64,000 nucleotides of DNA from Nitrospirota bacterium (GTDB lineage Bacteria > Nitrospirota > Nitrospiria > Nitrospirales > Nitrospiraceae). The notes under the pieces are model-generated. The model saw only the letters and a program-made list of their open reading frames with translations. It ran no database searches and was not told the DNA's origin. Below are positions 28,511-53,398 of the stretch, piece by piece. The stretch is from contig JBFMAX010000001.1 of NCBI GenBank assembly GCA_040755395.1, positions 496,001 to 560,000 of the forward strand, written 5' to 3'. Positions within the stretch are counted from its first letter, which is position 1. The number at the start of each line of letters is the position of its first letter. The position numbers and the translations under genes are program-made.

Positions 28511-28571
28511 AGTGGCGAGATGGATGAGCGTCTTCAGAAGCGTTGGCGAAATCGACCACAGAGGTGCTGGG

Positions 28572-32573: not shown

Positions 32574-32680
32574 CCATCGCGGAGTGAAACCCCGTCGTGA
32601 AAACGACGACTGCGAATGATCCGGCGCCTCTTGATTCGACGAGAGAAGTATGCCGATTGAGTGAGTCGAGAGAGTGGCCC

Positions 32681-35539
32681 ATGCGCGGGCGGTCCGCTTT
32701 GGTGTTCTTCGTGATCACACTGGCAACCGGAGGGTGCGCCACGATCGATCCGCGGGAATTGGTTGACTGCGTCACGTACGGGCTCGAGGGATTTCGGCCG
32801 GTTGCGGCTCAACGCACCGAACGATTTCTAGGCAAGGTGGACAAAGACACCGCTCGCTGTCGGGGCGGGAACAAAGCCGTGGCGGGTCGCGACTTTCCCT
32901 GGGTGGACTGGCAGAACTACTGGGCTGCGGGAGATGCCGGTTCCAAGTCGTGGGGCTCCGCGGACGGGAGCGGGCACTTCCCCCCGAATGGACGCGGCAT
33001 CGACGGGGCCTTGCTCGACCTCGAGTTCCAACGCATGGAGCTGATCAGGTTCAACCTGTTCGACAACAGCGGGACCTACGAGGACTATGTCAAGGGTCGG
33101 ACGGAGGACGGCAAGCCACAAGACGGACCGACCCTGAAGGTCTGGCAAGAGATGCGGCTTCCGCGCGGGCATCCGCAGTACGAAGTCGTGGGCGGTGATG
33201 ATCACCAGACCTGCCGCGGCGAGTTGATCCGCTTCCGCACTCTCACCGGCATCTGCAACGACATCCGCAATCCCCTTATGGGCTCCACCGGCCAGCCTTT
33301 CGCGCGCAACGTGGAGTTCGAGACCACCTTCCCGGACTTAGGCAAGAACGACATCGTCAAGAACCGCCACGCTGACCGACTGGAGTTGCTCAAGCCCGAC
33401 CCGCAGATGATCAGTCGCACGCTCTTCATCCGAACACAATCGCAACCCCACACATGCCACGCGGGGCTCGGGTTGCCGGGTAACTCGCCCGAGGCCACCT
33501 GCGACTATAAGAAGGCCCCGTTCTTCAACGTCCTGGCCGCCTTCTGGATCCAATTCATGACGCACGATTGGTTCTCTCACCTGGAGGAAGGACACAACCG
33601 GGAAGTGAACGGGAAGCCCGACCTCATGCCCGTCGGATGCATGGCTGAGGCCGCCGGCAAGCTCGGATGCCGCCCCGATGACCGGATGGACCGAGCCTCC
33701 ATCGCGGAGCAGAACGATCCGCCGACCTTCACCCACCAAGGCAAGACCTATCTCACCCGGGCCTATAAGACCACGCGGAATACCGTCACGGCCTGGTGGG
33801 ATGCGTCGCAGATCTACGGCTATGACGAGCGGTCGCACCAGCGGGTCAAGCGAGATCCGAAAGACCCGGCCAAGCTCCAGATGATCACCGTGGGCCGGCG
33901 CGCGGGAGAGGGCGAGAAGCAAGGCTACCTGCCCCAGTTCGATTCAACCGATCCCATCAACCCCGCCTGGGCTGATCAGGAGGCGACGGCGTTCCCGGAT
34001 AACTGGTCCGTCGGCCTGAGCTTCTTCCACAACGTCTTCGCCCGCGAGCACAACCAGTTTGTGGAGGCGTTCCGCGACCGGCAGCAGAAGACGCCGAACG
34101 CCGACAGCGGACTCCGCCATCCCGCCCGGCCCGACGAGGAGATCCCATACAAGAATGTGAGCGACGAAGAACTGTTCCAGATCGCGCGGCTCGTCGTCTC
34201 GGCGGAGATCGCCAAGATTCACACCATCGAGTGGACCACGCAACTGCTCTACGACGAGCCGCTCTATCTGGGCATGAACGCCAACTGGCACGGGCTCCTG
34301 CGTGGAGAGGGCCCGGTGTCGAGAGCCCTCGAAAAGATCGTGGTGCAATCCTTCGGCAAGTCCCGGGACGCGAAGACAGCCAATCAGTGGTATTCGGTCT
34401 TTGCCGCCGGACCGGGGATCTTCGGATTAGGCAGCCGCGTGTATGCCGACGATGCCATCTTCTCCCTCTACGATCCGAAGAAGACAGACATCTGGAGCCT
34501 GAAGAATCCCGACCACGTCAACGGGGGCACCAACCACTTCGGCTCGCCGTTCAACTTTCCAGAAGAGTTCATCACCGTCTATCGCCTGCACCCGATGGTA
34601 CCCGATCTGCTCGAATACCGCGAGCTCAAGAATCCCAACGGCATCGTGGAGAAGATTCCGGTGGTCGAGACGTTCCGCGGCAAAGCCACGCCCGCGATGA
34701 GAGACCGGGGCTTGGCCAACTGGGCGCTATCGATGGGACGCCAACGGCTCGGACTGCTCGCGCTCCAGAACCACCCGCAGTTCCTGCAAAACTTGCCGAT
34801 GCCCGCGTCGCGCACGGGGACCGGCAAACTCGACGTCGCGGCGCTTGACCTCATTCGGGACCGGGAACGTGGCGTGCCGCGATTCAACGAGTTTCGGCGA
34901 CAGTATGGGCTGAAGACCCTCATGAGCTTTGACGATTTCGTGGACCAGCGGCCTCCCAAGGAGTCGGAAGCACGCAAGGAACAGGAAAAATTAGCGCAGC
35001 TTCTGCGCGAGGTCTACGGCCGGCACACTTGCGACGCGTCCAAAATCATCACCACAGCCCAAGTGAACGACGACGGGACGCCGATCAACGACTGCCTCGG
35101 ACACCCCGACGGCAGCATGGTGGACAATGTCGAAGACGTGGACACCGTCGTGGGCTGGCTGGCGGAGCCAGTCCGGCCCCACGGCTTCGCCATCTCCGAG
35201 ACCCAGTTCCAGGTCTTTATCCTCAACGCCTCGCGGCGCCTCTTCAGCGACCGGTTCTTCACGTCGAGCTTTCGGCCGGAGTTCTACACGCATCTGGGAG
35301 TGGAGTGGGTCACGAACAATGGTCCGGACGGCAAGAAAATGGAACCAAACAAGTCGAACGGCCATGAAGTGGAAGTATCGCCGCTCAAGCGCGTGCTCCA
35401 GCGGACCATCCCGGAACTCAAGCCGGAACTCGAACACGTGATCAACGTCTTCGACCCCTGGGCCCGCGACCGTGGGGAATATTACAGCCTGCAGTGGAAG
35501 CCGAGGCCAGGTGCGGAGGCGGACGAGGCGTTCAGGTAG
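32681..35539 (+). CDS. animal-type heme peroxidase lipoprotein (COX/alpha-DOX-like)
   Basis: 952 residues from ATG 32681. The signal peptide MRGRSALVFFVITLATGGC ends in a lipobox-like Cys; an upstream in-frame start (32597) would place 28 polar residues before it. The peroxidase-cyclooxygenase fold shows a distal Gln/His in IQFMTHDWFSH (about 290), FAREHNQFV (about 445) and the proximal-His motif VYRLHPMVPDLL (about 634). A Tyr three residues before the proximal His lies where cyclooxygenases have the catalytic Tyr. The C-terminal part after about 700 is less clear. It should oxidise small substrates or lipids with peroxide at the envelope. It stands between two secretion genes. Confidence 0.85.
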   Translation: MRGRSALVFFVITLATGGCATIDPRELVDCVTYGLEGFRPVAAQRTERFLGKVDKDTARCRGGNKAVAGRDFPWVDWQNYWAAGDAGSKSWGSADGSGHFPPNGRGIDGALLDLEFQRMELIRFNLFDNSGTYEDYVKGRTEDGKPQDGPTLKVWQEMRLPRGHPQYEVVGGDDHQTCRGELIRFRTLTGICNDIRNPLMGSTGQPFARNVEFETTFPDLGKNDIVKNRHADRLELLKPDPQMISRTLFIRTQSQPHTCHAGLGLPGNSPEATCDYKKAPFFNVLAAFWIQFMTHDWFSHLEEGHNREVNGKPDLMPVGCMAEAAGKLGCRPDDRMDRASIAEQNDPPTFTHQGKTYLTRAYKTTRNTVTAWWDASQIYGYDERSHQRVKRDPKDPAKLQMITVGRRAGEGEKQGYLPQFDSTDPINPAWADQEATAFPDNWSVGLSFFHNVFAREHNQFVEAFRDRQQKTPNADSGLRHPARPDEEIPYKNVSDEELFQIARLVVSAEIAKIHTIEWTTQLLYDEPLYLGMNANWHGLLRGEGPVSRALEKIVVQSFGKSRDAKTANQWYSVFAAGPGIFGLGSRVYADDAIFSLYDPKKTDIWSLKNPDHVNGGTNHFGSPFNFPEEFITVYRLHPMVPDLLEYRELKNPNGIVEKIPVVETFRGKATPAMRDRGLANWALSMGRQRLGLLALQNHPQFLQNLPMPASRTGTGKLDVAALDLIRDRERGVPRFNEFRRQYGLKTLMSFDDFVDQRPPKESEARKEQEKLAQLLREVYGRHTCDASKIITTAQVNDDGTPINDCLGHPDGSMVDNVEDVDTVVGWLAEPVRPHGFAISETQFQVFILNASRRLFSDRFFTSSFRPEFYTHLGVEWVTNNGPDGKKMEPNKSNGHEVEVSPLKRVLQRTIPELKPELEHVINVFDPWARDRGEYYSLQWKPRPGAEADEAFR

Positions 35540-36770: not shown

Positions 36771-39700
36771 ATGAGACGCACATTCCTGTTTCATGACTGG
36801 ATAACAAGGATACCCGCTGTCTATCAGTACGTTGTGATTCCAGTCCTCAGTGCGGTGTCGTTGTCGCTCCCCTGCCTGTTAGCCTCTGGCCACGCCCAAA
36901 CACCTATCACGTCGTCCGGACTCAACACGAAGGTCAACTTAAGCACATCAGAGACAGTTCCCGTAGGCAAAGTCCAATACGACATCACTGGCGGGACCAG
37001 AGAGGGGACGAACCTGTTTCATAGCTTCGGCGAGTTCAGTGTCCCGACCAACAACATCGCGAATTTTCTCAACACAGGTTCGGTTGATCTGAACGGTAGC
37101 CTACTCGCTCCCAATCTACCCACCTCCAACATTCTCGGCCGCGTCACCGGCGGCAACCCCTCCAGCATCTTCGGAACGATTCGGACTACCGACTTCGGCA
37201 ATGCAAACCTCTTCCTCATGAACCCAGCCGGGATTGTCTTCGGCCCCAACGCCAGTTTGAACGTCGGTGGGTCGGTGACCTTCACCACCGCGAACTATCT
37301 ACGGCTGGCAGAGGCTGGCGGAACGAATGCGGGAATATTTCACGCCGACCAGGCAATGATGAATAGCGTGCTGACCAGCGCCCCTGTGGCGGCGTTTGGA
37401 TTCCTGGGGTCAAATCCCGCAGCGATTTCTGTCCAAGGCAGCACCTTGGCGGTTCAACCTGGCCAGTCAATTTCCCTTGTAGGAGGGCACCAAGGATTCT
37501 CCTATTCCAACCCGGACACCGGCGTTATGGCTTCCGTGTCAAACGGCATGACCGTCATTGGTGGCAAACTCTCGGCTCCGCGAGGTCAGGTCAACCTAGC
37601 CGGCACCGCCTCGCCTGGAGAATTTCTGGCAGGAACCTGGGAGCACGCCGCCAATACCAGTGGCGAATCGTTCGGATCGCTGGGTGCGATCGAGGTCACG
37701 CAAAAATCGGCCATCGATGTGAGCGGCGCCGGTGGGGGCACCGTTCGTATTCGCGGCGGCCGCTTCGTGTTGAACGATTCAACGATCTTCGCCAACATCA
37801 CTGGTCCCGAGGTGGCCGCTCCGGGGGGCGGCATTGACATTGACGTGGCTCAAGATGCGGTGATTCAGAACGGCGCAGTCCTTCAAACCAATGTATCCGG
37901 CAATGCCACACCCGGTGTCCAATACGGCGGCGTGACCCTCAAGGCCGATCGCATCGAAATCTTGGGATCCCAGGATTTTCAGAGGCGACCCTCTACAGGA
38001 ATTGCGTCCGAAGTGGCCCTACGCAGTACGGGAGGCAGCAGTGGTGATATCAACTTGGAAGCCGACTCGATCCTCATCAAAGACTTTGGAACATTCTCGA
38101 CGCGGATAACTACGCGAACGCGCGGTGTCGGCAACTCGGGCGACATTACGCTGAAGACCACGGGCAACCTCGAAATCGACGGCGTCGTTTTTATTACGAC
38201 AAACTCATCGTCATCCCCCTCTGGAAATGCCGGGTCCATCGAGTTGATCAGTACCCAGGGAAGTATCTCCATGACGAACGCACCGTTCGTGAGTTCCCAA
38301 GCTCTAGCAAGTAGTACTGGAACCGTCGGAAGTATCACGGTTAGCGCACCAGCCGGTGATATTCTCTTGGCTGATGGAGTTCTTTTTACACGCATCGACG
38401 GGACCGGGGCGAATGCGGGAAAGGGCGGGATTCAGCTTACCGCACAGAATCTCACCATAGAAAATGCCGGCATCCAAATCGACAATTTTACGCCCTTCCA
38501 GCCGGGAGATATGACCGTGAACCTTACCGGCCGCTTGAGCCTGAGCGGCACGTTGTTCCCCTCTACCCTTCTGACGACCACACGGCGATCGGCACGTTCT
38601 GCCGATCTCAACATCACGGCTCATGACGTTCTTCTTACCGACGGCAGCCTGGTCGCCACGGAAACGTTCCGAGACGGGGATGCGGGGACTCTCAATTTCT
38701 TTACTCAGAACCTCGAGATCACTAACGGCGCGCAAATCAGAAGCAGCAGCCGATTCAATCCGTTTCCTCCTCCGGGCCAGCCACCTGAAATTCCATCCGG
38801 TGCAGGGGGAACTATCACCATCCAGGGATTGGCAAGCCCGGCGGAATCTATCCTGATCGACGGTCCCGGCAGCGGCATCTTCACCAACACGGAGGGAAGC
38901 GGCGCAGGCGGGAGCATCAGCCTCTTCGCCAATTCCGTCACGGTTCAGAATGGTGGAAAGGTGTCGGCCGCCACCTCGGGTTCGGCGACTTCGGCGACCG
39001 GTGGCACAATCACCGTGGAGGGTAGTCAGGTACAACTGGATACCGGCGCGGTCGTCACCGCCGAAACCAGCGGCCCGGCGGACGCGGGCAATATCCTCAT
39101 CAAGGCCGACACTTTCAGCATGACCGGCGGCGCGACGGTGACGGCGAACTCGACCGGCTCAGGCGCCGCCGGCACCGTGACCATCGAAGGCACGGCGAGC
39201 CCGGCGCAGTCGATCGTGATCGACGGAACGGGCAGCGGGATCTTTACTACCACCTCGGGCACCGGCGCGGGCGGCGACATGGACCTGTTCGCCGACACGG
39301 TCACACTCCAGAACGGCGGCACGCTGTCGGCCACAAGCACAGGCACCGCGGCGACTGCTGTCGGCGGCACGATCGGCATCACCGCCACGGAGTCGGTGAG
39401 CCTGACCGGCGGCGCGTCCATCGCGGCGAGCAGCAGCGGGCCGGCCGACGCGGGGAACATCGCCATCGACGCCGGCAACTCGTTCTTCATGCAGGACAGC
39501 TCGGTCACGACCAGTGCCACGCAGGCCAGCGGCGGGGATATCTCGGTCCAGGCCAGTTCGATTTTCCGGATGATCAACAGCCAGATGACGGCCTCAGTCC
39601 AGCAGGGCTCCAACACCTTTGGCGGGAACATCACGATCGATCCGCAGTTCGTGATCCTCCAGAACCAGAGCCAGATCCTCGCCACCGCCGTGGAGGGCAC

Positions 39701-40184
39701 AGGCGGCAATATCCTGATCGTGACCCCGGTCTTTCTCGCGGATCAGACGAGCCTGGTGGACGCCTCTTCGCAGTTCGGCCGGAGCGGGACGGTGACGATC
39801 CAGTCGCCGACCTCGCAGTTGGCCGGGACCTTGGCGACGCTCCCGCAGTCGGTGCGGCAGGCGGCGGCCCTCAACACGGTGCGCTGTGCCGCGCAGATGG
39901 GGGGCCAAGCGAGCAGCTTCATCGTGGCGGGGCGGGATACGCTGCCGGCGGAGCCGGGCGGGTGGATGATGAGTGCCCTCACCCTCACCCCTCCCCTCTC
40001 CCTAGCAGGGAGAGGGGAAACAGTTGAAAGCGCGGGCGCGGGGCGAGAGGCGAGGGGCGACACCCTCACCCCATCCCTCTCCCAGGGGGAGAGGGAGCAG
40101 ACCGTGTCATTGCGGCGGATGACGCCGGGCGGGTTCTTGACGCAGGCATTTGCAATTGAGGGGTCGCCAGGCTGCGGCTCGTAA
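36771..40184 (+). CDS. filamentous-haemagglutinin-type TpsA exoprotein 2
   Basis: 1137 residues. A signal region (to about residue 42, GHAQ) is followed by a TPS domain: SGLNTKVNLSTSE, YDITGGTREGTNLFHSFGEF, NPAGIVFGPNASLNVGGS, VTFTTANYLRLAE. A beta-helix repeat region follows, with an AGGSGGTITI-like and GGTLSATSTG repeat pattern in its last third. GGGAGGAT lies 5-12 bp upstream of the ATG. Its C-terminal 243 residues are almost identical to those of the gene at 28572, including the family A repeat-encoded segment. It should be exported by the TpsB encoded downstream. It is probably an adhesin or surface structural protein; the target is unknown. Confidence 0.92.
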   Translation: MRRTFLFHDWITRIPAVYQYVVIPVLSAVSLSLPCLLASGHAQTPITSSGLNTKVNLSTSETVPVGKVQYDITGGTREGTNLFHSFGEFSVPTNNIANFLNTGSVDLNGSLLAPNLPTSNILGRVTGGNPSSIFGTIRTTDFGNANLFLMNPAGIVFGPNASLNVGGSVTFTTANYLRLAEAGGTNAGIFHADQAMMNSVLTSAPVAAFGFLGSNPAAISVQGSTLAVQPGQSISLVGGHQGFSYSNPDTGVMASVSNGMTVIGGKLSAPRGQVNLAGTASPGEFLAGTWEHAANTSGESFGSLGAIEVTQKSAIDVSGAGGGTVRIRGGRFVLNDSTIFANITGPEVAAPGGGIDIDVAQDAVIQNGAVLQTNVSGNATPGVQYGGVTLKADRIEILGSQDFQRRPSTGIASEVALRSTGGSSGDINLEADSILIKDFGTFSTRITTRTRGVGNSGDITLKTTGNLEIDGVVFITTNSSSSPSGNAGSIELISTQGSISMTNAPFVSSQALASSTGTVGSITVSAPAGDILLADGVLFTRIDGTGANAGKGGIQLTAQNLTIENAGIQIDNFTPFQPGDMTVNLTGRLSLSGTLFPSTLLTTTRRSARSADLNITAHDVLLTDGSLVATETFRDGDAGTLNFFTQNLEITNGAQIRSSSRFNPFPPPGQPPEIPSGAGGTITIQGLASPAESILIDGPGSGIFTNTEGSGAGGSISLFANSVTVQNGGKVSAATSGSATSATGGTITVEGSQVQLDTGAVVTAETSGPADAGNILIKADTFSMTGGATVTANSTGSGAAGTVTIEGTASPAQSIVIDGTGSGIFTTTSGTGAGGDMDLFADTVTLQNGGTLSATSTGTAATAVGGTIGITATESVSLTGGASIAASSSGPADAGNIAIDAGNSFFMQDSSVTTSATQASGGDISVQASSIFRMINSQMTASVQQGSNTFGGNITIDPQFVILQNQSQILATAVEGTGGNILIVTPVFLADQTSLVDASSQFGRSGTVTIQSPTSQLAGTLATLPQSVRQAAALNTVRCAAQMGGQASSFIVAGRDTLPAEPGGWMMSALTLTPPLSLAGRGETVESAGAGREARGDTLTPSLSQGEREQTVSLRRMTPGGFLTQAFAIEGSPGCGS
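39456..40184 (+). repeat. near-identical 3' segment shared by the two TpsA genes, copy 2
   Basis: Partner of 31851-32573, longer by 6 bp (one extra CTCACC in the family A block). Confidence 0.85.
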
Positions 40185-40189
40185 TGACT

Positions 40190-40226
40190 GTATCGAGGTA
40201 GATACGCGGCGTATCTAGGTCGATAC
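40190..40226. promoter_or_regulatory. tandem enhancer-like sites (GTATC-N6-GATAC), locus 2
   Basis: Two perfect sites, GTATC-GAGGTA-GATAC (40190-40205) and GTATC-TAGGTC-GATAC (40211-40226), 21 bp apart. Together they make a 37-bp near-palindrome. Site 2 begins 132 bp before the -24/-12 promoter at 40343. Confidence 0.8.
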
Positions 40227-40342
40227 GATTAGGCGGCGTGGCAGGCTGGCCTGCTTACCTGCCCCAACAGGAATAGGACGTTTTTCTACGCAGAAGCGCG
40301 GAGTTATCCTTCGTGCCCGGTCGAGGGGTCTGGGCTGCTGGT

Positions 40343-40357
40343 GGGCACGGCAGTTGC
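40343..40357 (+). promoter_or_regulatory. sigma-54 promoter, locus 2 (TpsB-CHAT-DUF928 operon)
   Basis: GGGCACG-GCAG-TTGC: matches the -24/-12 consensus at all positions but the first T, with GG and GC correctly spaced. It lies about 195 bp before the tpsB start at 40552. Confidence 0.75.
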
Positions 40358-40454
40358 GCTCTTCATCGTAGCGGTGAATGGAGCCTATGACCGGTCCGGC
40401 GGGCGAGAGGGGGGAGGGAGCGGTTGCTCGGGAGGAGAAAACCCCCTCAATCCA

Positions 40455-40562
40455 CCCCTCACCCTGGCCCTCTCCCGCACGGGGGAGAGGGGATAGAGAT
40501 CAGGAGGAGGGAAAAAGAGATCGCCCTCGCCCCTTTGGGGAGAGGGGTGGGGTGAGGGGAAT
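40455..40562. repeat. dispersed repeat, family A, providing the tpsB ribosome site
   Basis: CCCCTCACCCTGGCCCTCTC and CGGGGGAGAGGGGATAGAG, then CGCCCCTTTGGGGAGAGGGG and GTGAGGGG. The GGGGAGAGG string lies about 9-17 bp before the GTG start at 40552 and can act as a Shine-Dalgarno sequence. Confidence 0.7.
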
Positions 40563-42285
40563 TCTCAGGCTTTTTATTTTTATGATGATGGCCACACTGA
40601 CAGCCTCGCCGGTCTTTACGCAGGTGCTGCCGCCGATCTTTGACCCGACGGGCCGGTCCGGCGAGCCGCCGGCGCCCTTGAAAAAAGAATTCAAGCCGCC
40701 GACGCCGCCGCCCAAACCCGCCTTGCCGCCCGTGCCGGTCCCGCCGGAGGGCGGCATTGAAAAACAGATGCCCAAGATCCGCGTCTTCGTCCATGACATC
40801 CATGTCGTCGGCAGCACGGTGTTCTCGGACGCCGAGATCGATGAAGTCGTCGCCCCGTTCCGCCAGCGGATGCTCACGACGGAAGATCTGGAGCGCCTGC
40901 GCCTCGCGCTCACCTTGATGTACGTGAACAAGGGCTACATCACGTCCGGCGCGATCATTCCAGACCAGGACGTGACGTTCGGCGTGATCACCTACCAGAT
41001 CATCGAAGGGACATTGACGCGCATCGACGTCGAAGGTAACCGGTGGTTCCGGACGTCCTATCTCCGCGATCGGGTCGCGCGCGGCGTGACGACGCCGGTG
41101 ACCCTGGCGCCGATCCAGGAGCGCCTGCAACTGCTCCAGCAGGACCCGCGCATCCAGCGGATCAACGCGGAACTGCGGCCCGGCGACCAACGCGGCGAGA
41201 GCGTGTTGAATCTGCGCGTGACGGAAGCGAGCCCCTTCAAGGCCTGGCTGGAGTTCAACAACTTTCAGACGCCGGTGGTGGGCGCGGAGCGCGGGCTGGG
41301 CACCGTCGCGCATCAAAATCTGACGGGCAACGGCGATCCGTTCAGCTTCACGTACGGGCGGTCGCGCGGGGTCGATCCGATCATCGACACGTTTTACACC
41401 TTGCCGCTGAACCGGTATGACACGACGTTCACGGCCTCCTATCGGCGCAACGATTTCCTCGTCATCGAAGCGCCGTTCCGGCCGTTGGACCTGCGGGTGC
41501 AGGCGGAGATCATCGGCTTCACCTTGCGGCATCCGGTGGTCCGGACGCTGTCCGACGAATTCGCCGTCGCGATCGTCGGCGAGCGCTTGTACAACAAGGT
41601 CACGTCGATCTTCGACGTTCCCGGCGTCGCCTCGCTCTTCATCCCCGGCTCGTCGCCGACCGGCGTGAACACGGTGAGCGCGTTGCGCTTCGTCCAGGAA
41701 TGGACGCACCGCACGACGAATTCCGTCTTTGCCGCGCGGTCGCGGTTTACGGTCGGCATCGACGTGCTGGAAGCGACCATCAATCACGGGCCGTTGCCCG
41801 ACAGCCAGTACTTCGCCTGGCTCGGCCAGATGCAGGGCGTGCGGCGCTTCGACGACTGGTGGGGCTTGCAGCTCCTCGGCCGCATGGACCTCCAGGTGGC
41901 GAACGACCGGCTGTTTCCCTTGGAGCAGGTGCCGGTGGGCGGTCGGTTCAGCGTACGGGGCTACCGCGAGAATACCCTCGTGCGCGACAACGCGTACCTG
42001 GCCTCGATCGAAGCGCGCTGGCCGTTGTGGCGTTCGGCGGCCGGCGAGGACCGCCTCCAGTTCGCGCAGTTCATCGACCTGGGGCGCGCCTGGAACGCGA
42101 AGGGCGGGACGCCGGATCCGGAGACGTTGGCCAGCGTGGGCCTCGGCGTCCGGTGGATGGTTCTGCCGCAGGACCGCGCGCGGTTCGAGGTCTATTGGGG
42201 CGTGCCGTTGAATCACGTGGAGACGCCGGGGGGCAATTTGCAGGATCACGGGATTCATCTGCAGTTCGTGGTGCAGGCGTTGTGA
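40552..42285 (+). CDS. TpsB-type outer-membrane transporter (ShlB/FhaC family)
   Basis: 577 residues from GTG 40552, giving a signal peptide (n-region RGILRLFIFMMMATLTASP, cut near FTQ). A Pro-rich linker (PPTPPPKPALPPVPVPPEGG) is followed by POTRA-type domains (about 80-240: IHVVGSTVFSDAEIDEVV, GYITSGAIIPDQDV). The rest is a 16-strand BamA-type barrel ending in HLQFVVQAL, with the conserved VPVGGRFSVRGYRE (about 465). It exports TpsA proteins such as those at 28572 and 36771. The upstream in-frame ATG 40378 would translate repeat sequence and is unlikely to be the start. It heads the sigma-54 operon with the CHAT and DUF928 genes. Confidence 0.92.
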   Translation: MRGILRLFIFMMMATLTASPVFTQVLPPIFDPTGRSGEPPAPLKKEFKPPTPPPKPALPPVPVPPEGGIEKQMPKIRVFVHDIHVVGSTVFSDAEIDEVVAPFRQRMLTTEDLERLRLALTLMYVNKGYITSGAIIPDQDVTFGVITYQIIEGTLTRIDVEGNRWFRTSYLRDRVARGVTTPVTLAPIQERLQLLQQDPRIQRINAELRPGDQRGESVLNLRVTEASPFKAWLEFNNFQTPVVGAERGLGTVAHQNLTGNGDPFSFTYGRSRGVDPIIDTFYTLPLNRYDTTFTASYRRNDFLVIEAPFRPLDLRVQAEIIGFTLRHPVVRTLSDEFAVAIVGERLYNKVTSIFDVPGVASLFIPGSSPTGVNTVSALRFVQEWTHRTTNSVFAARSRFTVGIDVLEATINHGPLPDSQYFAWLGQMQGVRRFDDWWGLQLLGRMDLQVANDRLFPLEQVPVGGRFSVRGYRENTLVRDNAYLASIEARWPLWRSAAGEDRLQFAQFIDLGRAWNAKGGTPDPETLASVGLGVRWMVLPQDRARFEVYWGVPLNHVETPGGNLQDHGIHLQFVVQAL

Positions 42286-42287
42286 AA

Positions 42288-42450
42288 GCCCCTCACCCTT
42301 GCCCTCTCCCCGGATAGGGAGAGGGGAGAGAAAATAGACCCCCTCCCTGGAAAATGGAGGGAGAGAGAAAATGGCCCTCTCCCCGGTAGGGAGGGGGAGA
42401 GTTTTTTGAATCACCCTCGCCCCTTTGGGGAGAGGGGAGGGTGAGGGGGG
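42288..42450. repeat. cluster of dispersed family A hairpins between tpsB and the CHAT gene
   Basis: Repeated CCCTCTCCCC and GGGGAGAGGG strings (for example GGATAGGGAGAGGGGAGAGA, CCCGGTAGGGAGGGGGAGAG and GGGGAGAGGGGAGGGTGAGG), several copies in 160 bp, ending just before the CHAT gene start. Confidence 0.8.
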
Positions 42451-42465
42451 ATGGAGATGGTTCCT

Positions 42466-44769
42466 ATGCCGCATAGAACGCTTGTCGCCATCATCTTCGT
42501 TTGCATCACCCTCGCCTTCGCCTTCCCTGCGTTGGCCGCGGGCTCTGAGCCCGCGCCGCCGGAGGGCCTGATGCAGCAGGGGGCGCAGGCGTTTGCGCGC
42601 GGGGCGTTCGATCAGGCGCTCTCGCTCTGGAAACAGGCGGCGCAGGAGTACGAACGGGCCGGGAAGGTGCGGGAACGGAGTGAGGCGCTGGTCCGCGCGG
42701 CGCAGGCGGCACACTCGCTCGGCCAGCTCAAACAGGCGTTGCAATCGCTGGAGTTGGCGCTGAACCTGGCTCAGCAGATCGGCGATCCCGTCTGGACGGC
42801 GGTCGTGCAGGACGGGATCGGGAAAGTCTACTTTGCGAACCGGCAACCCGAAGCCGCCGCGCACCATTTGTCCGAGGCCCTGGAGATCGCGAAGGCGCAG
42901 GAGGCGCGCGGGCTGACCGCCGCGATCCTCAACGACCTGGGCATCGTTCGGTCGTTCCATCAGCAGTACCTCGACGCGCTGGCGGCCTTTACCGAGAGCG
43001 ATCTATTGGCTCAGGGCGCTGATCAACCGGCGCTGGCGATCCGGGCGCGGCTCAATGCGGCGCGCGTCGCGCTCCGCTTGAAACGCCACCAGGATGCGCG
43101 CCTGTGGTTGGACCAGGTGTACGATCAACTGAAGGACCTCCCGGCCTCGCACGACAAGGCGACCGCCCTCATCGCGCTCGGCTTGCTGTACCACGAGCTG
43201 CGCGGCGCGTTTCCGGACCTCAGCGATCCGCTCGTGCTGCGCGCCGCGGCGGTCTTGCAGGACGCTGCGGCGACGGCGGAACAGATGGGCGACATCCGCA
43301 CGTTGTCCTACGCCTGGGGCTACCTTGGTCGTCTTTACGAGACGGACCATCGCTACGACGACGCGCTGACCCTGACGCGCCAGGCGGTCTTCGCGGCCCA
43401 GTCGGCGAGCGCCCCGGAATCGCTCTATCGCTGGCAATGGCAGACCGGCCGCATTCTCGCCGCGCAGGGCCGACTCGACGAGGCCATCTCGGCCTACCGC
43501 AGCGCCACGGCCACCCTGCAGCCGATCCGTCCGGAGGTGGCGACCGCCTCGCAGGATGCCGGGTCGCCCGGTCAGGGCACCGTGCGCCCGCTCTATTTCG
43601 AGTTCGCCGATCTGCTGCTGCAACGCGCCGCGCTGACGGAGGAGGGCCCCGCGTCCCAAGGCTATCTGAGGGCCGCGCGGGACGCGATCGAGGCCTCCAA
43701 GGCCGCCGAGCTCCGCGATTATTTCCGCGACGAGTGCGTCGACGCGTTGCAGGCGCACACGACCACGCTGGATGCCATTTCCACGACCACTGCGGTGCTA
43801 TACCCGATCATTTTCGCCGATCGGACCGAGTTGCTGGTGAGCCTGCCGACCGGGTTGAAGCGGGTGACCGTCCCGGTTCCGTCGACGACGCTGACACAAG
43901 AGGTCCGGACCTTCCGGCGCCTGTTGGAGAAGCGGACGACGCGCGAGTACCTGCCCCACGCGCAGCAGCTCTATGAATGGTTGCTGCGACCGCTCGACGC
44001 GGACCTGAAGGCTTTCGCCATCGACACGCTGGTGGTGGTGCCGGACGGTCCGCTCCGGACGATCCCCCTCGCCGCCCTGCACGACGGCGCCGAGTTCGTG
44101 ATCCAGCGCTACGCCATCGCCACTACGCCGGGCCTCAATTTGACCGATCCGCGCCCCCTCAACCGCGAGCGGCTGAAGATGCTGGCCGGCGGCCTCACGC
44201 AAGCCGCGCAGGGCTTTCCGCCCCTGCCGCACGTGACCATCGAGCTGCAGGCGATCCGCGCGTTGTACGGCGGCAAGCAACTGGTCAATAAGCAGTTCCT
44301 CGTGGCCGGCCTGGAAAAGGAGCTGAAGGAGAAGCCGCTGTCCGTCCTGCACATCGCGTCGCACGGCCGCTTCGAGAAAGACGTGGCGCACTCGTTCGTC
44401 CTGACTTACGACGACAAGCTGACGATGGCCAAGCTGGACCAGTACGTGGGGCTCTTCCGGTTCCGGCAGGACCCCCTGGAGCTGCTCACATTGAGCGCCT
44501 GCGAGACCGCGGCCGGCGACGATCGCGCCGCGTTGGGCTTGGCCGGCGTGGCGATCAAGGCCGGCGCGCGCAGCGCGCTCGCCACGCTGTGGTCCATCAA
44601 CGACGAGGCCTCGTCCACGTTGGTGGCCGAGTTCTACAAGCAACTCCGCGATCCGGCCGCGTCCAAGGCCGTGGCGCTCCAGCGCGCCCAACTGAAACTG
44701 CTGAGCGATCCCGTGTATCGGCATCCGGCGTATTGGTCGCCGTTCTTGTTATTGAACAACTGGCTGTGA
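42466..44769 (+). CDS. secreted TPR-CHAT caspase-like protease
   Basis: 767 residues from ATG 42466 (a GGAG lies 9 bp upstream; the in-frame ATG 42451 is an alternative). The signal peptide MPHRTLVAIIFVCITLAFAF is cut near ALA. A tetratricopeptide (TPR) region covers about 25-380 (repeats such as LNDLGIVRSFHQQYLDALAA and AWGYLGRLYETDHRYDDALT). The C-terminal CHAT domain has the catalytic His in SVLHIASHGRF (about 627) and catalytic Cys in LLTLSACETAAGDDRAALGL (about 675), ending in LFLLNNWL. CHAT proteins are caspase-like cysteine proteases. With TpsB upstream and three DUF928-like genes downstream, it resembles an arrangement known from cyanobacteria. Its substrate may be the TpsA proteins; this is inference. 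Confidence 0.9.
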   Translation: MPHRTLVAIIFVCITLAFAFPALAAGSEPAPPEGLMQQGAQAFARGAFDQALSLWKQAAQEYERAGKVRERSEALVRAAQAAHSLGQLKQALQSLELALNLAQQIGDPVWTAVVQDGIGKVYFANRQPEAAAHHLSEALEIAKAQEARGLTAAILNDLGIVRSFHQQYLDALAAFTESDLLAQGADQPALAIRARLNAARVALRLKRHQDARLWLDQVYDQLKDLPASHDKATALIALGLLYHELRGAFPDLSDPLVLRAAAVLQDAAATAEQMGDIRTLSYAWGYLGRLYETDHRYDDALTLTRQAVFAAQSASAPESLYRWQWQTGRILAAQGRLDEAISAYRSATATLQPIRPEVATASQDAGSPGQGTVRPLYFEFADLLLQRAALTEEGPASQGYLRAARDAIEASKAAELRDYFRDECVDALQAHTTTLDAISTTTAVLYPIIFADRTELLVSLPTGLKRVTVPVPSTTLTQEVRTFRRLLEKRTTREYLPHAQQLYEWLLRPLDADLKAFAIDTLVVVPDGPLRTIPLAALHDGAEFVIQRYAIATTPGLNLTDPRPLNRERLKMLAGGLTQAAQGFPPLPHVTIELQAIRALYGGKQLVNKQFLVAGLEKELKEKPLSVLHIASHGRFEKDVAHSFVLTYDDKLTMAKLDQYVGLFRFRQDPLELLTLSACETAAGDDRAALGLAGVAIKAGARSALATLWSINDEASSTLVAEFYKQLRDPAASKAVALQRAQLKLLSDPVYRHPAYWSPFLLLNNWL

Positions 44770-44926
44770 CCAGGATGTTGAAAAAACTTTTCGGGACTCG
44801 TGTGGGCAGTTCTTCCCCCTCTCCCTTGAGGGGAGAGGGTGCGGGTGAGGGTGGAGGAATCGGGGCTTGGTACGGGGGCGAGGGATATTTCGAAGTCGGG
44901 TGCGACGACCTTTTTGAACATCCCGG
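44770..44926. mobile_element. MITE-like element, family H, between the CHAT gene and the first DUF928-like gene
   Basis: The left end is CCAGGATGTTGAAAAA (44770-44785). The right end TTTTTGAACATCCCGG (44911-44926) is its inverted copy with two mismatches. The element carries a family A hairpin and no gene. It is related to the insertion at 20763. It begins right after the CHAT stop codon and may affect transcription of the downstream genes. Confidence 0.65.
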
Positions 44927-45011
44927 TTGAGCACCCATAGCCCTGAGCGTAGGAACCATGCTAGACTCTCGGCGTTCCCACCCCATGACATGGCCGGTTC
45001 TCGGAGGATCT

Positions 45012-45824
45012 ATGCGCTTCCTCCTGATCCTGACGGCCGCCGCTCTCGCCCTCGGTTTCGGTGCTTCGCCGCCGGGACTCGCCGCCGAGCCCTCCCCGCA
45101 GGCCCCGATTGAACAGGTGCAAAACGCCCCCAAGTTCATCGAGCCGACCGTGCCGGTCTACAAACCGCGCAAAGGCAGCGCGCTCCGCGGCCGGGTGGAC
45201 GGCGGGTTCCGCGGAGGAGACAAAGGCGAGCCCGTCGTCAAGGTCCTCGCGCCCGCCGACCATATCGGCTTCACCATTCGCAAGGCGCCGGCCCTGTATT
45301 GGTACCTGTCCCAGGCAACCACCTATCCGATCGAATTCACGCTGGTGGACAACCGGCACTATCAGCCGGAGCTGCAGGTGTCGCTCAAACCTCCCCCCTG
45401 CCCCGGCATTCAGATGGTCGGGCTCGCCGAGTACAACAAGACGCTGGAGGAGGAGGTGCAGTATTGGTGGCACATCGCCGTGATCGTCGACCCCGAATCC
45501 CGGTCGAAAGACATTCACTCGGCGGGCGCCATCGAACGCATTCCCTACCTGGATGCCCTCGTCGAGGGCAGGACCGCCTGTAAGGACCCGCTGGACGTCT
45601 TCTGCCTGTATGTGGAGTCCGGACTCTGGTACGACGCCATCCAGGTGATCTCCGACTTGATTACGGCGCATCCGAAGGATCGGGTTCTGCGCCTGATGCG
45701 CGCGTCCCTGTTGGACCAGGTGGGGCTGAACGACGTGGCCGACTATGACCGGATGCAGAACGGCACGCCGTGTCCGGCGCGCAAGGTGGAGGCGGACTCA
45801 GCGACCGCGTCCGCGCAACGGTAA
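45012..45824 (+). CDS. DUF928-like secreted protein 1
   Basis: 270 residues from ATG 45012 (GGAGG 4-9 bp upstream). The signal peptide ends near GLAAEP. The conserved core is YKPRKGSALRGRVDGGF, then PADHIGFTIRKAPALYWYLS, FTLVD, EVQYWWHIAVIVDPESRS and GLWYDAIQVISDLITAHP. This pattern (a W-Y-L motif, FTL, a Tyr-Trp pair and a Leu-rich end) matches DUF928, a family often found in cyanobacteria near CHAT and haemagglutinin genes. One Cys pair is seen in ACKDPLDVFC. Function unknown; it may be a structural partner of the secreted complex. Confidence 0.85.
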   Translation: MRFLLILTAAALALGFGASPPGLAAEPSPQAPIEQVQNAPKFIEPTVPVYKPRKGSALRGRVDGGFRGGDKGEPVVKVLAPADHIGFTIRKAPALYWYLSQATTYPIEFTLVDNRHYQPELQVSLKPPPCPGIQMVGLAEYNKTLEEEVQYWWHIAVIVDPESRSKDIHSAGAIERIPYLDALVEGRTACKDPLDVFCLYVESGLWYDAIQVISDLITAHPKDRVLRLMRASLLDQVGLNDVADYDRMQNGTPCPARKVEADSATASAQR

Positions 45825-45828
45825 CCCT

Positions 45829-46566
45829 ATGAACTCTCGAAGGCCGGTCATACGGTGGCTGGCGGTCTGCAGCCTGAGCCTCTCCGGCGGAGTCTTCGCC
45901 GCCGTCGCCCCGGCGACGGAATTCCAGCTTGCCCGAGAGGCGGATTCGCCGGCTCCGCTCTACAAACCCCGCGAGCGCGCCACGCCGCGCGCCCGCGTGT
46001 TCGGGCCGACCCGCGGGATCGAGGCCGACGCGCCGCAGGCGCTGGCTCTGGTTCCGGATCACATCGGCTTCACCGTGTCCGCGCAACCGACCCTCTACTG
46101 GTACCTGTCGAAGACGACCTCCCTGCCCGTCACCTTCACCCTGATCGACACGCGGGTCATCAAGCCGCTGTTTCACGTGACGCTCGCGCCTCCCCGCCGC
46201 GCGGGGCTGCAGGCGATCCGGCTGAAGGATTACGGGATCACGCTGGAAGAGCACGTGCAGTATCGCTGGTTCGTCTCTCTGGTCCCCGATCCGAATTCGC
46301 CGGCGCGCGATATCGTCACGGGCGGGGTGATCGAGCGTGTGGTGGCCAATGAAGCCGGCTGCGGCCTATCGGTCGCGGCCTCGCTGGATGCGGCCCGGTG
46401 TTACGCGGAAGATGGGTTGTGGTACGACATGTTCGCCGCCATCTCCGACCTCATCGCGGCGTCGCCCCAGGACCGGGCCCTTCGCCGAATCCGCGCCTCG
46501 TTCCTGCAGCAGGCCGGCTTGCCGGACGTCGCCGCCTGGGACTTGCGCCAAGGTGGGAGTGAGTAG
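45829..46566 (+). CDS. DUF928-like secreted protein 2
   Basis: 245 residues, starting 4 bp after the previous stop. The signal peptide ends near PATEF. It shares with its neighbours YKPRERATPRARVFGPTRG, VPDHIGFTVSAQPTLYWYLS, LPVTFTLIDTRVIKPL, TLEEHVQYRWFVSLVPDPNS and a GLWYDMFAAISDLIA end, with a C-x(12)-C pair before GLWYD. The very short spacing points to co-translation with copy 1. The three copies diverge enough to be old duplicates, not recent ones. Confidence 0.87.
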   Translation: MNSRRPVIRWLAVCSLSLSGGVFAAVAPATEFQLAREADSPAPLYKPRERATPRARVFGPTRGIEADAPQALALVPDHIGFTVSAQPTLYWYLSKTTSLPVTFTLIDTRVIKPLFHVTLAPPRRAGLQAIRLKDYGITLEEHVQYRWFVSLVPDPNSPARDIVTGGVIERVVANEAGCGLSVAASLDAARCYAEDGLWYDMFAAISDLIAASPQDRALRRIRASFLQQAGLPDVAAWDLRQGGSE

Positions 46567-46602
46567 TTTGAAAATACGGGTCCTGTCACCGCCCGGCCGG
46601 GT

Positions 46603-46632
46603 ACCCGTTGCTCCGCTCCGGTTGCAACGGGT
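46603..46632. repeat. ACCCGTTGC...GCAACGGGT hairpin, family F, copy 2
   Basis: Arms ACCCGTTGC and GCAACGGGT with a 12-base loop. It lies in a 219-bp gap (46567-46785) that also has a family A hairpin near 46712-46745. Confidence 0.8.
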
Positions 46633-46785
46633 GAAAGCTCGCACCCCGCCCGGTGTAAGGACCCCGCTGCGCGCGGACGGGCTCCCAGGGCGGTGCCACC
46701 CGCATTAGTTGCACCCTCTCCCCTGGAGGGAGAGGGTTAGGGTGATGGGGCGCGTTTTCATACTGCTCGGGTGCGTCAAGAGCAC

Positions 46786-47562
46786 ATGGTGACTCACAAG
46801 AAGAACGAGGCCTTCCCTCTTCTCCTTCTCCTCAGCGCGGCTCTCCTGGTCGGCGGGTTTGTCGCCGGTGTGCCCGGTGTCGTCGCGGCTCCTGCGCCGG
46901 CGGAGCCGGCCGCCGCTCAGATCCGCGAGCCCGCGGCGGCTCCCGACCGGCCGTTGCCAGCGTACAAGCCTCGGAAAGACAGCGTTCCGCGGGCGAGAAT
47001 CGGCGGGCCGGCGCGTGGCGGCGAGCCCGGTGATCCGGCGCTGGTCGCGTTGGTTCCCGACCATGTGGGCCTGACCTTGAAAAGCGACCCTTCGCTCTGC
47101 TGGTTCCTCTCGCGACCGACGACGCAGCCCTTGACCCTCACGATTCTGGATTCCCGCGCGATCAAGCCGATCCTCGAAGCGACGTTGCCGTCGCCCGCCC
47201 GTCCGGGCTTGCAGTGCGTGCATCTCAGAGACCACGGCATTACGTTGAAGGAACGGGAACAATACCGGTGGTTCGTCACGCTGGTGCTCGATCCGGACAA
47301 ACCCTCGCGCGATATCGTGAGCGGCGGCATGATCGAACGGATCCCGTTCAGCGAAGGATGCGCCTTGGGACTCCCCTGTTCCTGGACCTGCGAGTTGGAC
47401 GCGGTCTATCAGTACGCGGAGAACGGGCTCTGGTACGACGCGATCGCCTGCCTGCTTGAATTGATCAAGGCGGCTCCCGATGATCCGTTACTGCTGAGGG
47501 TGCTTGATCACCTGCTGAAGCAATCCGACATTCATCTGCCTCCCGTTCGCCGCGCCGGATAA
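46786..47562 (+). CDS. DUF928-like secreted protein 3
   Basis: 258 residues from ATG 46786 (an in-frame GTG lies at 46771). The signal peptide carries KKNEAFPLLLLLSAALLVGG and is cut near VVAAP. The conserved core is YKPRKDSVPRARIGGPARGG, VPDHVGLTLKSDPSLCWFLS, PLTLTILDSRAIKPILEATL, EREQYRWFVTLVLDPDKPSR and GLWYDAIACLLELIKAAPD. It has the same plan as the two upstream genes but slightly changed motifs (CWFLS for YWYLS). It is the last gene of the operon and is followed by the next sigma-54 locus. Confidence 0.85.
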   Translation: MVTHKKNEAFPLLLLLSAALLVGGFVAGVPGVVAAPAPAEPAAAQIREPAAAPDRPLPAYKPRKDSVPRARIGGPARGGEPGDPALVALVPDHVGLTLKSDPSLCWFLSRPTTQPLTLTILDSRAIKPILEATLPSPARPGLQCVHLRDHGITLKEREQYRWFVTLVLDPDKPSRDIVSGGMIERIPFSEGCALGLPCSWTCELDAVYQYAENGLWYDAIACLLELIKAAPDDPLLLRVLDHLLKQSDIHLPPVRRAG

Positions 47563-50219: not shown

Positions 50220-50648
50220 ATGACGAGAAAAAACGTTGTTCAAGAGAAGAGTTTCGCTTTTGCCTTACAGATCGTCAAGCTGAGCCGACGCCTCCGGCTT
50301 GACCGGAGAGAATTGATTCCGTCCGGGCAACTCATTCGCTCCGGCATTTCGATCGGGGCGAACATTGAGGAAGCCATAGCCGCACAAAGCAAAAGAGATT
50401 TTCTTGCGAAGATGTCCATTGCCATGAAAGAGGCGCGCGAAACCCTTTACTGGTTACGGATCTTCCACGAATCCGGCCTGGCGAATAGTCCGGAAGTCAC
50501 CATGTTGCTTCAGGAGTGCCGGGAGCTTACGAATCTCCCCAGCAGTATCACGTTGACGACCCGTCAAAACCTCCAGGCGAACAAGCGTGTTTCTTCTCCC
50601 GATGCTATGAATTCCTCATTCCACATTCCTCATTCCACATTGGGATAG
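50220..50648 (+). CDS. four-helix-bundle protein (TIGR02436-like)
   Basis: 142 residues from ATG 50220. The helices EKSFAFALQIVKLSRRLRLD, the central LIRSGISIGANIEEAIAAQS and KMSIAMKEARETLYWLRIFH are the hallmark of the four-helix-bundle family first described in 23S rRNA intervening sequences. Its function is unknown. The last residues (MNSSFHIPHSTLG) come from a family C repeat at 50608-50642, so the original end was probably near residue 125. The next gene starts 11 bp downstream, suggesting the two are co-transcribed. Confidence 0.85.
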   Translation: MTRKNVVQEKSFAFALQIVKLSRRLRLDRRELIPSGQLIRSGISIGANIEEAIAAQSKRDFLAKMSIAMKEARETLYWLRIFHESGLANSPEVTMLLQECRELTNLPSSITLTTRQNLQANKRVSSPDAMNSSFHIPHSTLG

Positions 50649-50659
50649 TGGAGGCAGCT

Positions 50660-53398
50660 ATGACCACCGCAACGGCTGAACACAGCGTGCTCATTGTCGA
50701 CGATGAAGAGGATATCGTCTTGACGCTGCGGGACCTGCTGGAGCACGACGGGTACCGGGTCGATTTCGCCGGCACCTGCGCCGAGGCCATCGCCCGCGCC
50801 GCCGAACGCCATTACAACGCGGTGCTGCTCGACCTGACTCTGCCCGACGGCGACGGGCTCACCGTGTTGAAGGCGCTGCAGGAGCGCGACCCGACGCTGC
50901 CGGTCATCGTCCTGACCGCCGACGTCTCGACGGACCGGCGGGTCGATTTGCGGACCCAAGGCGCCTTCGATTATCTGACCAAGCCCTATAACCGCGACGA
51001 TCTGCGCGCCACGCTGCGCAAGGCGGTCGGGGTCAAAGCCCTTGCCGTGAAGGCGGCCCGGGTGGAACACGCCTTGACCGAGAGCCAGGAACGGTTCCGC
51101 TCACTGGTCGAGTCGGCGACGGACGCCATCGTCGTCGCCGACCACCGCGGCCGCATCCTCTCCTGGAACCGGGCGGCCTCGACCTTGTTCGGCTATGCCG
51201 AGGCCGAGATTCTGGGCCGGCCGCTGACCGCGCTGATGCCGGCCCGTTACCGGGAGGCGCACCAGAATGGCCTGCAACGCCTCCGCGCCGGCGGCGAGAC
51301 CCGCCTCATCGGCAGAGTGGTCGAGCTGGAAGGGCTCCGGAAGGACGGCAGCGAGTTTCCGCTGGAACTCTCGCTGGCCACGTGGCGGACGCGGACCGAG
51401 ACGTTCTTCAGCGGGATCATCCGCGACATCTCCGAACGGAAACGGGTCCAGGCGGCGCTCGGGGTGAGCGAAGAGCGCTTCCGTTCTCTGGTGTCGAACA
51501 TTCCCGGCGCCGTCTATCGCTGCGCCTGCGATCCCCACTGGACGATGGAGTTCCTGACCGACGGCGTCCAGGATCTCTGCGGGTATCCCGCGTCGGACTT
51601 TCTCGGCAACCGCGTCCGGTCGTACGCCAGCGTCATCCATCCGGACGATCGGGCGACGGTCGAGCGACAGGTCCATGAGGCGGTAGCGCAGCGACGGCCG
51701 TACGTCATCGAGTATCGGCTGTTGCACAGCAACGGCGACGTCCGATGGGTGTACGAGAAGGGGCAAGGAGTCTTCGAGGACGGCCGGGTGCGCTGGCTCG
51801 ACGGGGTCATCGTGGACATTACGGACCGCAAGCGGGCCGAAGCGGCGCTCCAGGACAGCGAAGAGCGGTATCGCGCGCTCTACGAAGACAACCCGTCCAT
51901 GTACTTCATGGTCGATCCCGACGGGAGGATCCTCTCGGTCAATCCTTTCGGCGCCGAACAACTCGGCTACACCGTCGCGGAGCTCCTCGGCCGGCCGGTC
52001 CTGTCGGTGTTTCACGCCGAGGACCGCCAGGCCGTGGCCCGGGAACTCGAGATGTGCCTGGAACACTTCGGCCGGGCGATCAGTTGGGAATTGCGTAAGG
52101 TCCGGAAGGACGGGGTCGTGATTTGGGTCCGCGAAACGGCCCGGGCGGTGCAAACCGCCGCCCACGGGCCGGTCGTGTTGATCGTCTGCGAGGACATCAC
52201 CGACCGCAAACGGGCCGAAGATGCGGAGCGGGAAAGCGAAGAGCGGTTCCGCCAGTTGGCCGAACAGATCAGAGAAGTCTTTTGGCTCAGCGATGCCGAG
52301 AAAAATCGGATCTATTATGTCAGTCCTGCGTACGAGCAGATCTGGGGCCGCCCCTGCGACGCGCTCTACGCCTCGCCTCGGTCGTGGTTGGACGCCATTC
52401 ATCCCGACGACCGGCCCCGCGTGCTCGAGGCGGCGCTCACCAAGCAAGTCGGCGGAGAGTACGACGAAGAGTATCGGATCGTGCGGCCGGACGGATCGGA
52501 GCGGTGGATTCGGGACCGCGCCTTCCCTGTCCGTGACGCGACCGGCCGAGTGTATCGGATCGCCGGGCTCGCCGAGGACATCACCGACCGCAAACGGATC
52601 GAAGCAGCCCTGCGCGACAGCAACGAGCGCCTGGACCTCGCGGTGCGGGGGTCCACCGACGGGCTATGGGACGGCCGCGTCATCCCCGGCGAGCACTGGT
52701 CCTCCCCGCGGACGCCGGTCTGGTGGTCGCCCCGCCTCAAAGAGCTGTTGGGGTTTGCCGACGACGAGTTCCCGGACGTGCTGGAGAGTTGGTCCTCCCG
52801 CCTCCATCCCGACGATAAGGACCGGGTCTTTGCCGCGCTGACGGCGCACATCGAGCGGAAGGAGCCGTATGACGTGGAATATCGGTTGCTGAACAAGGCG
52901 GGCGAATACCGGTGGTTCCGCGCCAGAGGGCAGGCCGTCTGGGACGACCAGGGTCGGCTGGTCCGAATGGCCGGCTCCCTGCAATGCGTCACCGACCGGA
53001 AGCGCGCGGAGGAAGCCCTGCGCGCGAGCGAGGAGCGGTTGCGGCTGGCGCTTCGCGCCGCCGACTTGGGGGTGTGGGATTGGGACCTCCGCTCGGGCCG
53101 CGTGTATTGGTCCGAGACCGTCGAAGCGTTCTTCGGCCTCCCTTCCGGTTCGTTCCCCGGGACGCATGCCGCGTACCTCGATCTCATTTACCTCGAGGAT
53201 CGCGGCCTCGTGCTGCAGGCCGTTCAGGACGCCGTCGAGGGACGAGCGGCGTTCGAGATCGAGCATCGGGTGGTCCGGCCGGACGGCACGCTGCATTGGC
53301 TGGCCTGGTCGGGCCGGGTCATGCGGGAGACGGACGGAACGGCGATCCGGATCCTCGGCACGGTGCGGGACGTGACGACAGCCAAACAACGCGCGTGA
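50660..53398 (+). CDS. REC-PASx6 signalling protein without a kinase domain
   Basis: 912 residues from ATG 50660 (GTGGAGG 6 bp upstream). The receiver (about 10-130) has VDDEED, the phospho-acceptor in LLDLTLPDGDG (about 56) and the conserved Lys in YLTKPY. At least six PAS/PAC units follow to the end, each closed by a D-I-[ST]-[DE]-R-K-R motif, such as IIRDISERKR, VIVDITDRKR and SLQCVTDRKR. There is no HisKA, HATPase, GGDEF or EAL domain: the protein stops at VRDVTTAKQRA, immediately before a family A repeat. Its first 270 residues resemble those of the kinase at 56995. It may be a phospho-relay sensor scaffold, or a kinase that lost its output. Confidence 0.9.
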   Translation: MTTATAEHSVLIVDDEEDIVLTLRDLLEHDGYRVDFAGTCAEAIARAAERHYNAVLLDLTLPDGDGLTVLKALQERDPTLPVIVLTADVSTDRRVDLRTQGAFDYLTKPYNRDDLRATLRKAVGVKALAVKAARVEHALTESQERFRSLVESATDAIVVADHRGRILSWNRAASTLFGYAEAEILGRPLTALMPARYREAHQNGLQRLRAGGETRLIGRVVELEGLRKDGSEFPLELSLATWRTRTETFFSGIIRDISERKRVQAALGVSEERFRSLVSNIPGAVYRCACDPHWTMEFLTDGVQDLCGYPASDFLGNRVRSYASVIHPDDRATVERQVHEAVAQRRPYVIEYRLLHSNGDVRWVYEKGQGVFEDGRVRWLDGVIVDITDRKRAEAALQDSEERYRALYEDNPSMYFMVDPDGRILSVNPFGAEQLGYTVAELLGRPVLSVFHAEDRQAVARELEMCLEHFGRAISWELRKVRKDGVVIWVRETARAVQTAAHGPVVLIVCEDITDRKRAEDAERESEERFRQLAEQIREVFWLSDAEKNRIYYVSPAYEQIWGRPCDALYASPRSWLDAIHPDDRPRVLEAALTKQVGGEYDEEYRIVRPDGSERWIRDRAFPVRDATGRVYRIAGLAEDITDRKRIEAALRDSNERLDLAVRGSTDGLWDGRVIPGEHWSSPRTPVWWSPRLKELLGFADDEFPDVLESWSSRLHPDDKDRVFAALTAHIERKEPYDVEYRLLNKAGEYRWFRARGQAVWDDQGRLVRMAGSLQCVTDRKRAEEALRASEERLRLALRAADLGVWDWDLRSGRVYWSETVEAFFGLPSGSFPGTHAAYLDLIYLEDRGLVLQAVQDAVEGRAAFEIEHRVVRPDGTLHWLAWSGRVMRETDGTAIRILGTVRDVTTAKQRA

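Follow-up and report, generated by a model that had tools for sequence, protein, structure and literature searches.

The window analysed here is a stretch of 64,000 nucleotides from a 4.11 Mb Nitrospirota genome (assembly GCA_040755395.1, contig JBFMAX010000001.1, positions 496,001 to 560,000; coordinates below are those of the window). It carries a type Vb, or two-partner secretion (TPS), locus together with a caspase-like protease of the TPR-CHAT kind and proteins of the DUF928 family. According to Pfam with curated cut-offs, the plus strand encodes a TpsA exoprotein with a TPS secretion domain and a beta-helix (TpsA2, 36771..40184; TPS E-value 4.7e-34, TIGR01901 5.9e-19), an outer-membrane transporter TpsB (40378..42285; ShlB 2e-22, POTRA_2 3.5e-19, Omp85), the TPR-CHAT protease with a predicted N-terminal signal sequence (42451..44769; CHAT 1.9e-55), and three DUF928 proteins with predicted export, namely a (44958..45824; 3.5e-29), b (45745 or 45829..46566; 2.5e-30), and c (46771..47562; 5.9e-28). 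Another exoprotein, TpsA1, is encoded on the same strand at 28512..32573 (TPS 9.6e-36). The TPS domain PF05860 scores above its cut-off in both TpsA proteins, PF06051 in all three DUF928 proteins, and a TpsB with POTRA domains and a ShlB-type barrel adjoins tpsA, as expected of type Vb systems. Since the curated cut-offs are exceeded, the TpsA, TpsB, TPR-CHAT, and three DUF928 genes proposed in an initial annotation of the region are real. The span given there, 36771-47562, does contain TpsA2, TpsB, CHAT, and the DUF928 genes, but TpsA1 and two further proposed members, a heme peroxidase and a zincin, lie outside it. TpsB probably starts near 40560, because its first ~60 codons run through an intergenic repeat. 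A second module in the same genome, on contig 4, comprises TpsA, TpsB, CHAT, a CHASE2-cyclase, and DUF928.

The gene set is conserved well outside this genome. Among 295 Nitrospirota genomes, searched with profiles of the TPS domain, CHAT, DUF928, and the TpsA tail motif described below, DUF928 is present in 64, and most of the 60 neighbourhoods read show TpsA, TpsB, CHAT, and DUF928 in synteny, often with PAS, ABC_sub_bind, and kinase genes after them. With the CHAT alignment as query, named genomes yield 80 loci, partly overlapping with the Nitrospirota set, from Nitrospirota, Desulfobacterota, Planctomycetota (Scalindua), Verrucomicrobiota, Myxococcota, Methylomirabilota, and alpha-, beta-, and gammaproteobacteria. 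The majority have a motif-bearing TpsA, TpsB, and DUF928 nearby, in varied orders and orientations. Isolates with such loci include Nitrospira moscoviensis and Desulfobacter latus; some labels of metagenome-assembled genomes are doubtful, and L167 and L122 (titled Akkermansia muciniphila and Verrucomicrobia) may be mislabelled or mixed bins. On the cyanobacterial plasmids covered by the survey, TpsA with the tail motif, CHASE2, CHAT, and DUF928 occur together. Judged by these matches, the module spans at least 8 phyla, including Pseudomonadota and Cyanobacteriota, and the gene set almost certainly represents a functional unit. Co-conservation in relatives, whose absence was set beforehand as the refuting condition, is thus strongly borne out for TpsA-TpsB-CHAT-DUF928, and the view that the set belongs mainly to cyanobacteria is wrong, given CHAT loci in so many phyla. 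The module is apparently undescribed: no description of CHAT together with TPS was found in the literature searched, where DUF928 is mentioned in PMC5587647 only. At L088 and L089, in two relatives, the flank found in the window (genes for USP, a radical SAM protein, and a small membrane protein) is followed by a DUF928 remnant of ~130 amino acids, and TpsA, TpsB, and CHAT are absent from the sequence read; the island may once have stood at this position and have decayed.

The aligned ends of the TpsA proteins share an invariant Cys followed by the motif SSF-x-V-x-GR-[DG]-x-LP-x-x-PG-x-x-L-x-SP. On the plus strand of the window it is located at 32160..32381 in TpsA1 (profile match G000:C1:528160-528381) and at 39765..39998 in TpsA2, where the end alignments place the first conserved Cys at codon 39885-39887. 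The motif profile matches 65 of the 295 genomes and the CHAT profile 67, with 64 common to both, 1 having the motif only, 3 CHAT only, and 227 neither (Fisher 5e-60); for the 100 genomes with a TPS domain the corresponding counts are 64, 1, 3, and 32 (p 1.4e-21), both values overstating the significance, since related genomes are not independent. Among the 33 genomes that have a TPS domain and lack this CHAT, the motif is found in 1, in an orphan TpsA, so that by profile matching it is a mark of CHAT-linked TpsA rather than a general TpsA trait. Short TpsA proteins with divergent bodies, standing beside divergent CHATs, still end in the motif (L140, L142, L160). Together with genomes G018, G135, G175, and G240, they represent a second locus type, in which the short TpsA, with its different body but shared Cys tail, accompanies TpsB and the divergent CHAT, while DUF928 and CHASE2 are missing.

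A second Cys follows within the last 8 residues in 82 of 84 long-tailed TpsA (in TpsA2 at codon 40173-40175, 3 residues before the C-terminal end), and the body is nearly free of cysteine (~0.1%). A Cys pair ending a Cys-poor protein is the pattern expected of C-terminal cysteine anchors of the HMW1, HxuA, and CdrA kind. In the AlphaFold2 model of the TpsA end only the beta-helix is confident; the tail has a predicted local distance difference test score (pLDDT) of ~50 and is predicted to be unstructured, as may be expected for an accessible protease target. The possibility that the tail motif is a folded domain was rejected on the same model. Identity between TpsA1 and TpsA2 is ~97% over the last ~250 residues but 22-37% in their middle parts, a contrast that points to recent gene conversion of the tail. 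Intergenic palindromic repeats (CCCTCACCC..GGCCCTCTCCC..GGGAGAGGG) flank genes of the locus at 40459-40500, 42288-42440, and 46715-46740, and also occur in the 3' ends of TpsA1 and TpsA2 (~32430-32530 and ~40040-40130), where they appear to be translated as part of the tail (TPPLSPAGRGE...TPSLSQGEREQ), downstream of the motif and ahead of the last Cys.

The catalytic dyad of the protease, His638 (44362-44364) and Cys684 (44500-44502), is invariant in 19 aligned proteins, which together with the domain score places it in the CHAT family. Pfam assigns only CHAT and TPR-type families to it and no LapG family. By hydropathy, the sole basis on which signal sequences were judged, 121 of 133 CHAT proteins have a hydrophobic stretch near the N-terminus, as exported proteins should, a property shared by 60% of random open reading frames; the predicted location of TPR-CHAT is the periplasm.

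The transporter offers another explanation of the motif. TpsB at CHAT loci constitutes a distinct subfamily, with scores of mostly 550-1000 bits vs 75-176 at loci without CHAT, and the tail motif might be a docking signal for this TpsB type, CHAT being a constitutive clean-up or maturation protease of stalled or mature tails that performs no regulated release. The tail of Bordetella FhaB is indeed processed by general periplasmic proteases (PMC8263021). However, three loci (L136, L152, and L173) keep CHAT and a motif-bearing TpsA with TpsB absent from the stretch read, and a dedicated sensor gene accompanies the set, so we consider docking unlikely. Somewhat less likely again is that CHAT serves as a scaffold or cuts some other protein (DUF928, the receptor, or TpsB, for instance): the distances of DUF928 do correlate with those of CHAT more closely than the distances of TpsB (r 0.94 and 0.84, respectively), yet the dyad is kept in all of the aligned CHATs, and CHAT stays beside a motif-bearing TpsA without DUF928 in six genomes (G165 and G254 in addition to the four listed above).

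As for DUF928, the AlphaFold2 model of protein b (pLDDT 89.8) consists of an FN3-like beta-sandwich followed by four TPR-like helices. Its closest solved structure is the C-terminal domain of MtxA (4z29; Z 10.5, root-mean-square deviation 4.4 over 156 residues), with the runner-up at Z 6.7. This domain of MtxA has been described as an FN3-like domain plus TPR, and in Magnetospirillum gryphiswaldense mtxA is followed by a gene for a CHASE2-adenylate cyclase (PMC4439547). Sequence similarity between DUF928 and the MtxA chain is undetectable even at E 10, and the model therefore only suggests kinship. MtxA is an orphan of magnetotactic bacteria with no known phenotype, which has a fold and a CHASE2-cyclase neighbour in common with DUF928, and it may form part of a comparable sensory pair. 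In loci not of the main Nitrospira type, CHAT and DUF928 are separated by a gene that Pfam identifies as a CHASE2-class III cyclase. ABC_sub_bind is found at 0 of 32 loci with CHASE2 vs 54 of 75 loci without it, and so one sensor seems to replace the other, an ABC_sub_bind/histidine kinase pair taking the place of the CHASE2-cyclase in the Nitrospira type. In the window this pair is encoded on the plus strand at 53505..54443 (ABC_sub_bind) and 54430..56661 (adjoining HAMP-GAF histidine kinase; Pfam and synteny), preceded by a receiver and multiple PAS protein (50516..53398, plus strand; Pfam) that is linked in many relatives.

Tentatively, and with a little less than even confidence, we interpret the locus as a type Vb module that brings along an envelope sensor and a dedicated caspase-like protease of the periplasm, and in which CHAT controls whether the fibre is retained or released. 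TpsB would export the beta-helical TpsA fibre, while a cysteine hook would hold the C-terminal tail in the periplasm. The exported TPR-CHAT would then act on this tail, leading to release or maturation of the fibre, as a dedicated protease in a role analogous to that of LapG for CdrA, although built of unrelated parts. DUF928 would be an exported adaptor or ligand sensor and the partner of a membrane receptor, either the CHASE2-class III cyclase of the widespread form or, as here, the ABC_sub_bind/histidine kinase pair of the Nitrospira form. The tail anchor and its release are suggested by known parallels, namely the C-terminal anchors of HMW1 and HxuA, which a disulfide locks, and CdrA, which a periplasmic protease sets free (PMC5422565). 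The earlier proposal that CHAT processes the fibre gains indirect support through the co-occurring tail motif.

What the sequence itself shows is the parts, their conservation, the nearly exclusive pairing of motif and CHAT, the pair of cysteines, the invariant dyad, and the exchange of receptors; periplasmic location, secretion, cleavage, the disulfide, and the direction of signalling are inferred. Several points, besides the dependence among related genomes, speak against this interpretation. Given the background among random frames, hydropathy is weak evidence for signal sequences. There are 14 TpsA tails without the second Cys, and the best-conserved stretch falls within the presumed disulfide loop, so that a cut there alone would not free the fibre. 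The interpretation is weakest where it concerns the role of the motif, which could instead serve the CHAT-type TpsB: recognition of the tail by this clade may be an alternative cause of the co-occurrence.

In a variant that is possible but rather doubtful, CHAT is a separase-like protease of the periplasm for which the C-terminal motif of a widespread surface fibre is a dedicated sorting signal; it would then set the fibre free or link it covalently to the envelope, and DUF928 with the CHASE2-cyclase would report the state of the fibre to cyclic-nucleotide signalling. Another reading, in which CHAT is a sortase like PorU of type IX secretion that cuts at GR-D and attaches the fibre to an acceptor in the envelope, appears very unlikely. 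CHAT and PorU do belong to the same caspase-gingipain clan, and one protease pairs with one C-terminal motif. However, acceptor-making genes were not seen accompanying the module, and GR-[DG], though frequent in TpsA tails, is not invariant: L034, L069, and tails related to them depart from the Arg. The same variation bears on separase-type specificity, for which the substrate would have Arg at P1 of the cleavage site.

The release mechanism proposed above can be compared with several characterised systems. CdrA/CdrB with LapG/LapD of Pseudomonas aeruginosa also has a TPS adhesin with a C-terminal cysteine hook, which keeps it at the outer membrane until a periplasmic protease, governed by a second messenger, sets it free (PMC5422565, PMC7616799, PMC11898600). 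In contrast, the protease here is TPR-CHAT rather than LapG and is encoded within the TPS locus, the receptor is the CHASE2-cyclase or the ABC_sub_bind/histidine kinase pair rather than LapD, and DUF928 is additional. In HMW1/HMW1B and HxuA/HxuB of Haemophilus influenzae the disulfide of the C-terminal anchor locks TpsA in TpsB (PMC5422565), but no CHAT-type protease or sensor has been described with them. In FhaB/FhaC of Bordetella, with DegP, CtpA, and SphB1, the C-terminal region of the TpsA also undergoes regulated proteolysis in the periplasm (PMC8263021), but a long prodomain stands where a short cysteine tail is found here, and the genes of the maturation proteases are not part of the TPS operon (PMC5422565). 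Csx29 (Craspase) and separase likewise combine TPR and CHAT with a His/Cys dyad (PMC9729208); they are intracellular and act on Csx30 or cohesin, whereas the proteins here carry predicted export signals. MtxA resembles DUF928 in being exported and in having a CHASE2-cyclase in its operon (PMC4439547), in spite of the missing sequence similarity. Since TPR-CHAT proteases work in CRISPR type III-E immunity (PMC9729208), contact-dependent inhibition or defence, in which TpsA would carry a toxin and CHAT would be the immune protease, may also be considered. It is, however, highly improbable: Pfam reports in TpsA no toxin domain of the kind that would be expected at the C-terminus of a CdiA protein, the tail is short, conserved, and predicted to be unstructured, and both CHAT and DUF928 have predicted export signals.

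The heme peroxidase (An_peroxidase, 32597..35539, plus strand; E-value 1.5e-68) and the zincin (25735..26919; metzincin signature HEIGHTLGLDH, an intact HExxHxxGxxH-type motif, with weak Reprolysin-like Pfam scores just below the cut-off) are passengers. Many relatives have orthologues of the ~980-residue peroxidase, but at a distance from the module; G183 is the exception, with ~6 kb between the gene and a TpsA. The only zincin match among 97 other genomes of the family is a distant relative ~110 kb from the module locus of its own genome. Both were rejected as module parts for want of co-conservation. The full island of the initial annotation, in which the peroxidase cross-links the fibre and the zincin and CHAT process it, therefore deserves hardly any credence: the genes adjoin on one strand here and G183 shows some proximity, but in the other relatives examined both are unlinked to the module, and the idea is largely refuted. 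Two small plus-strand genes for exported or lipoprotein products lie between the peroxidase and TpsA2 (to 36627). An exported protein of 320 amino acids with no assigned family is encoded 5' of TpsA1 (27548..28510, plus strand); its relatives stand immediately 5' of TpsA in 3 genomes, and it may be a weak accessory.

Sigma-54 control, also ascribed to TpsB-CHAT-DUF928, was rejected. The one sigma-54-like site before TpsB, at 40343 (GGGCACGGCAGTTGCG), has 2 mismatches, and the window contains 22 such sites vs 19.7 expected by chance. Upstream of module genes at 60 relative loci there are 14 near-matches vs 3 expected, most of them before DUF928, several with an identical first-base change (AGGCA), and one before TpsB, where there is consequently no enrichment. 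Perfect sites (TGGCAYR-N4-TTGCW) are present at 21509, 47738, and 56893, none of them directly 5' of module genes; downstream of the last DUF928 gene, the one at 47738 lies 5' of what may be a gene for a small membrane protein.

To our knowledge, all characterised TPR-CHAT proteases act intracellularly. A large, apparently exported subfamily is now tied to a specific candidate substrate and site, which makes its cleavage target directly testable. DUF928 gains a fold and a partner, and the orphan MtxA a suggested context. If the sorting-motif interpretation is true, type V secretion would gain a branch that is sorted by a protease. For nitrifiers such as Nitrospira, it gives a hint at how attachment in flocs and biofilms may be controlled.

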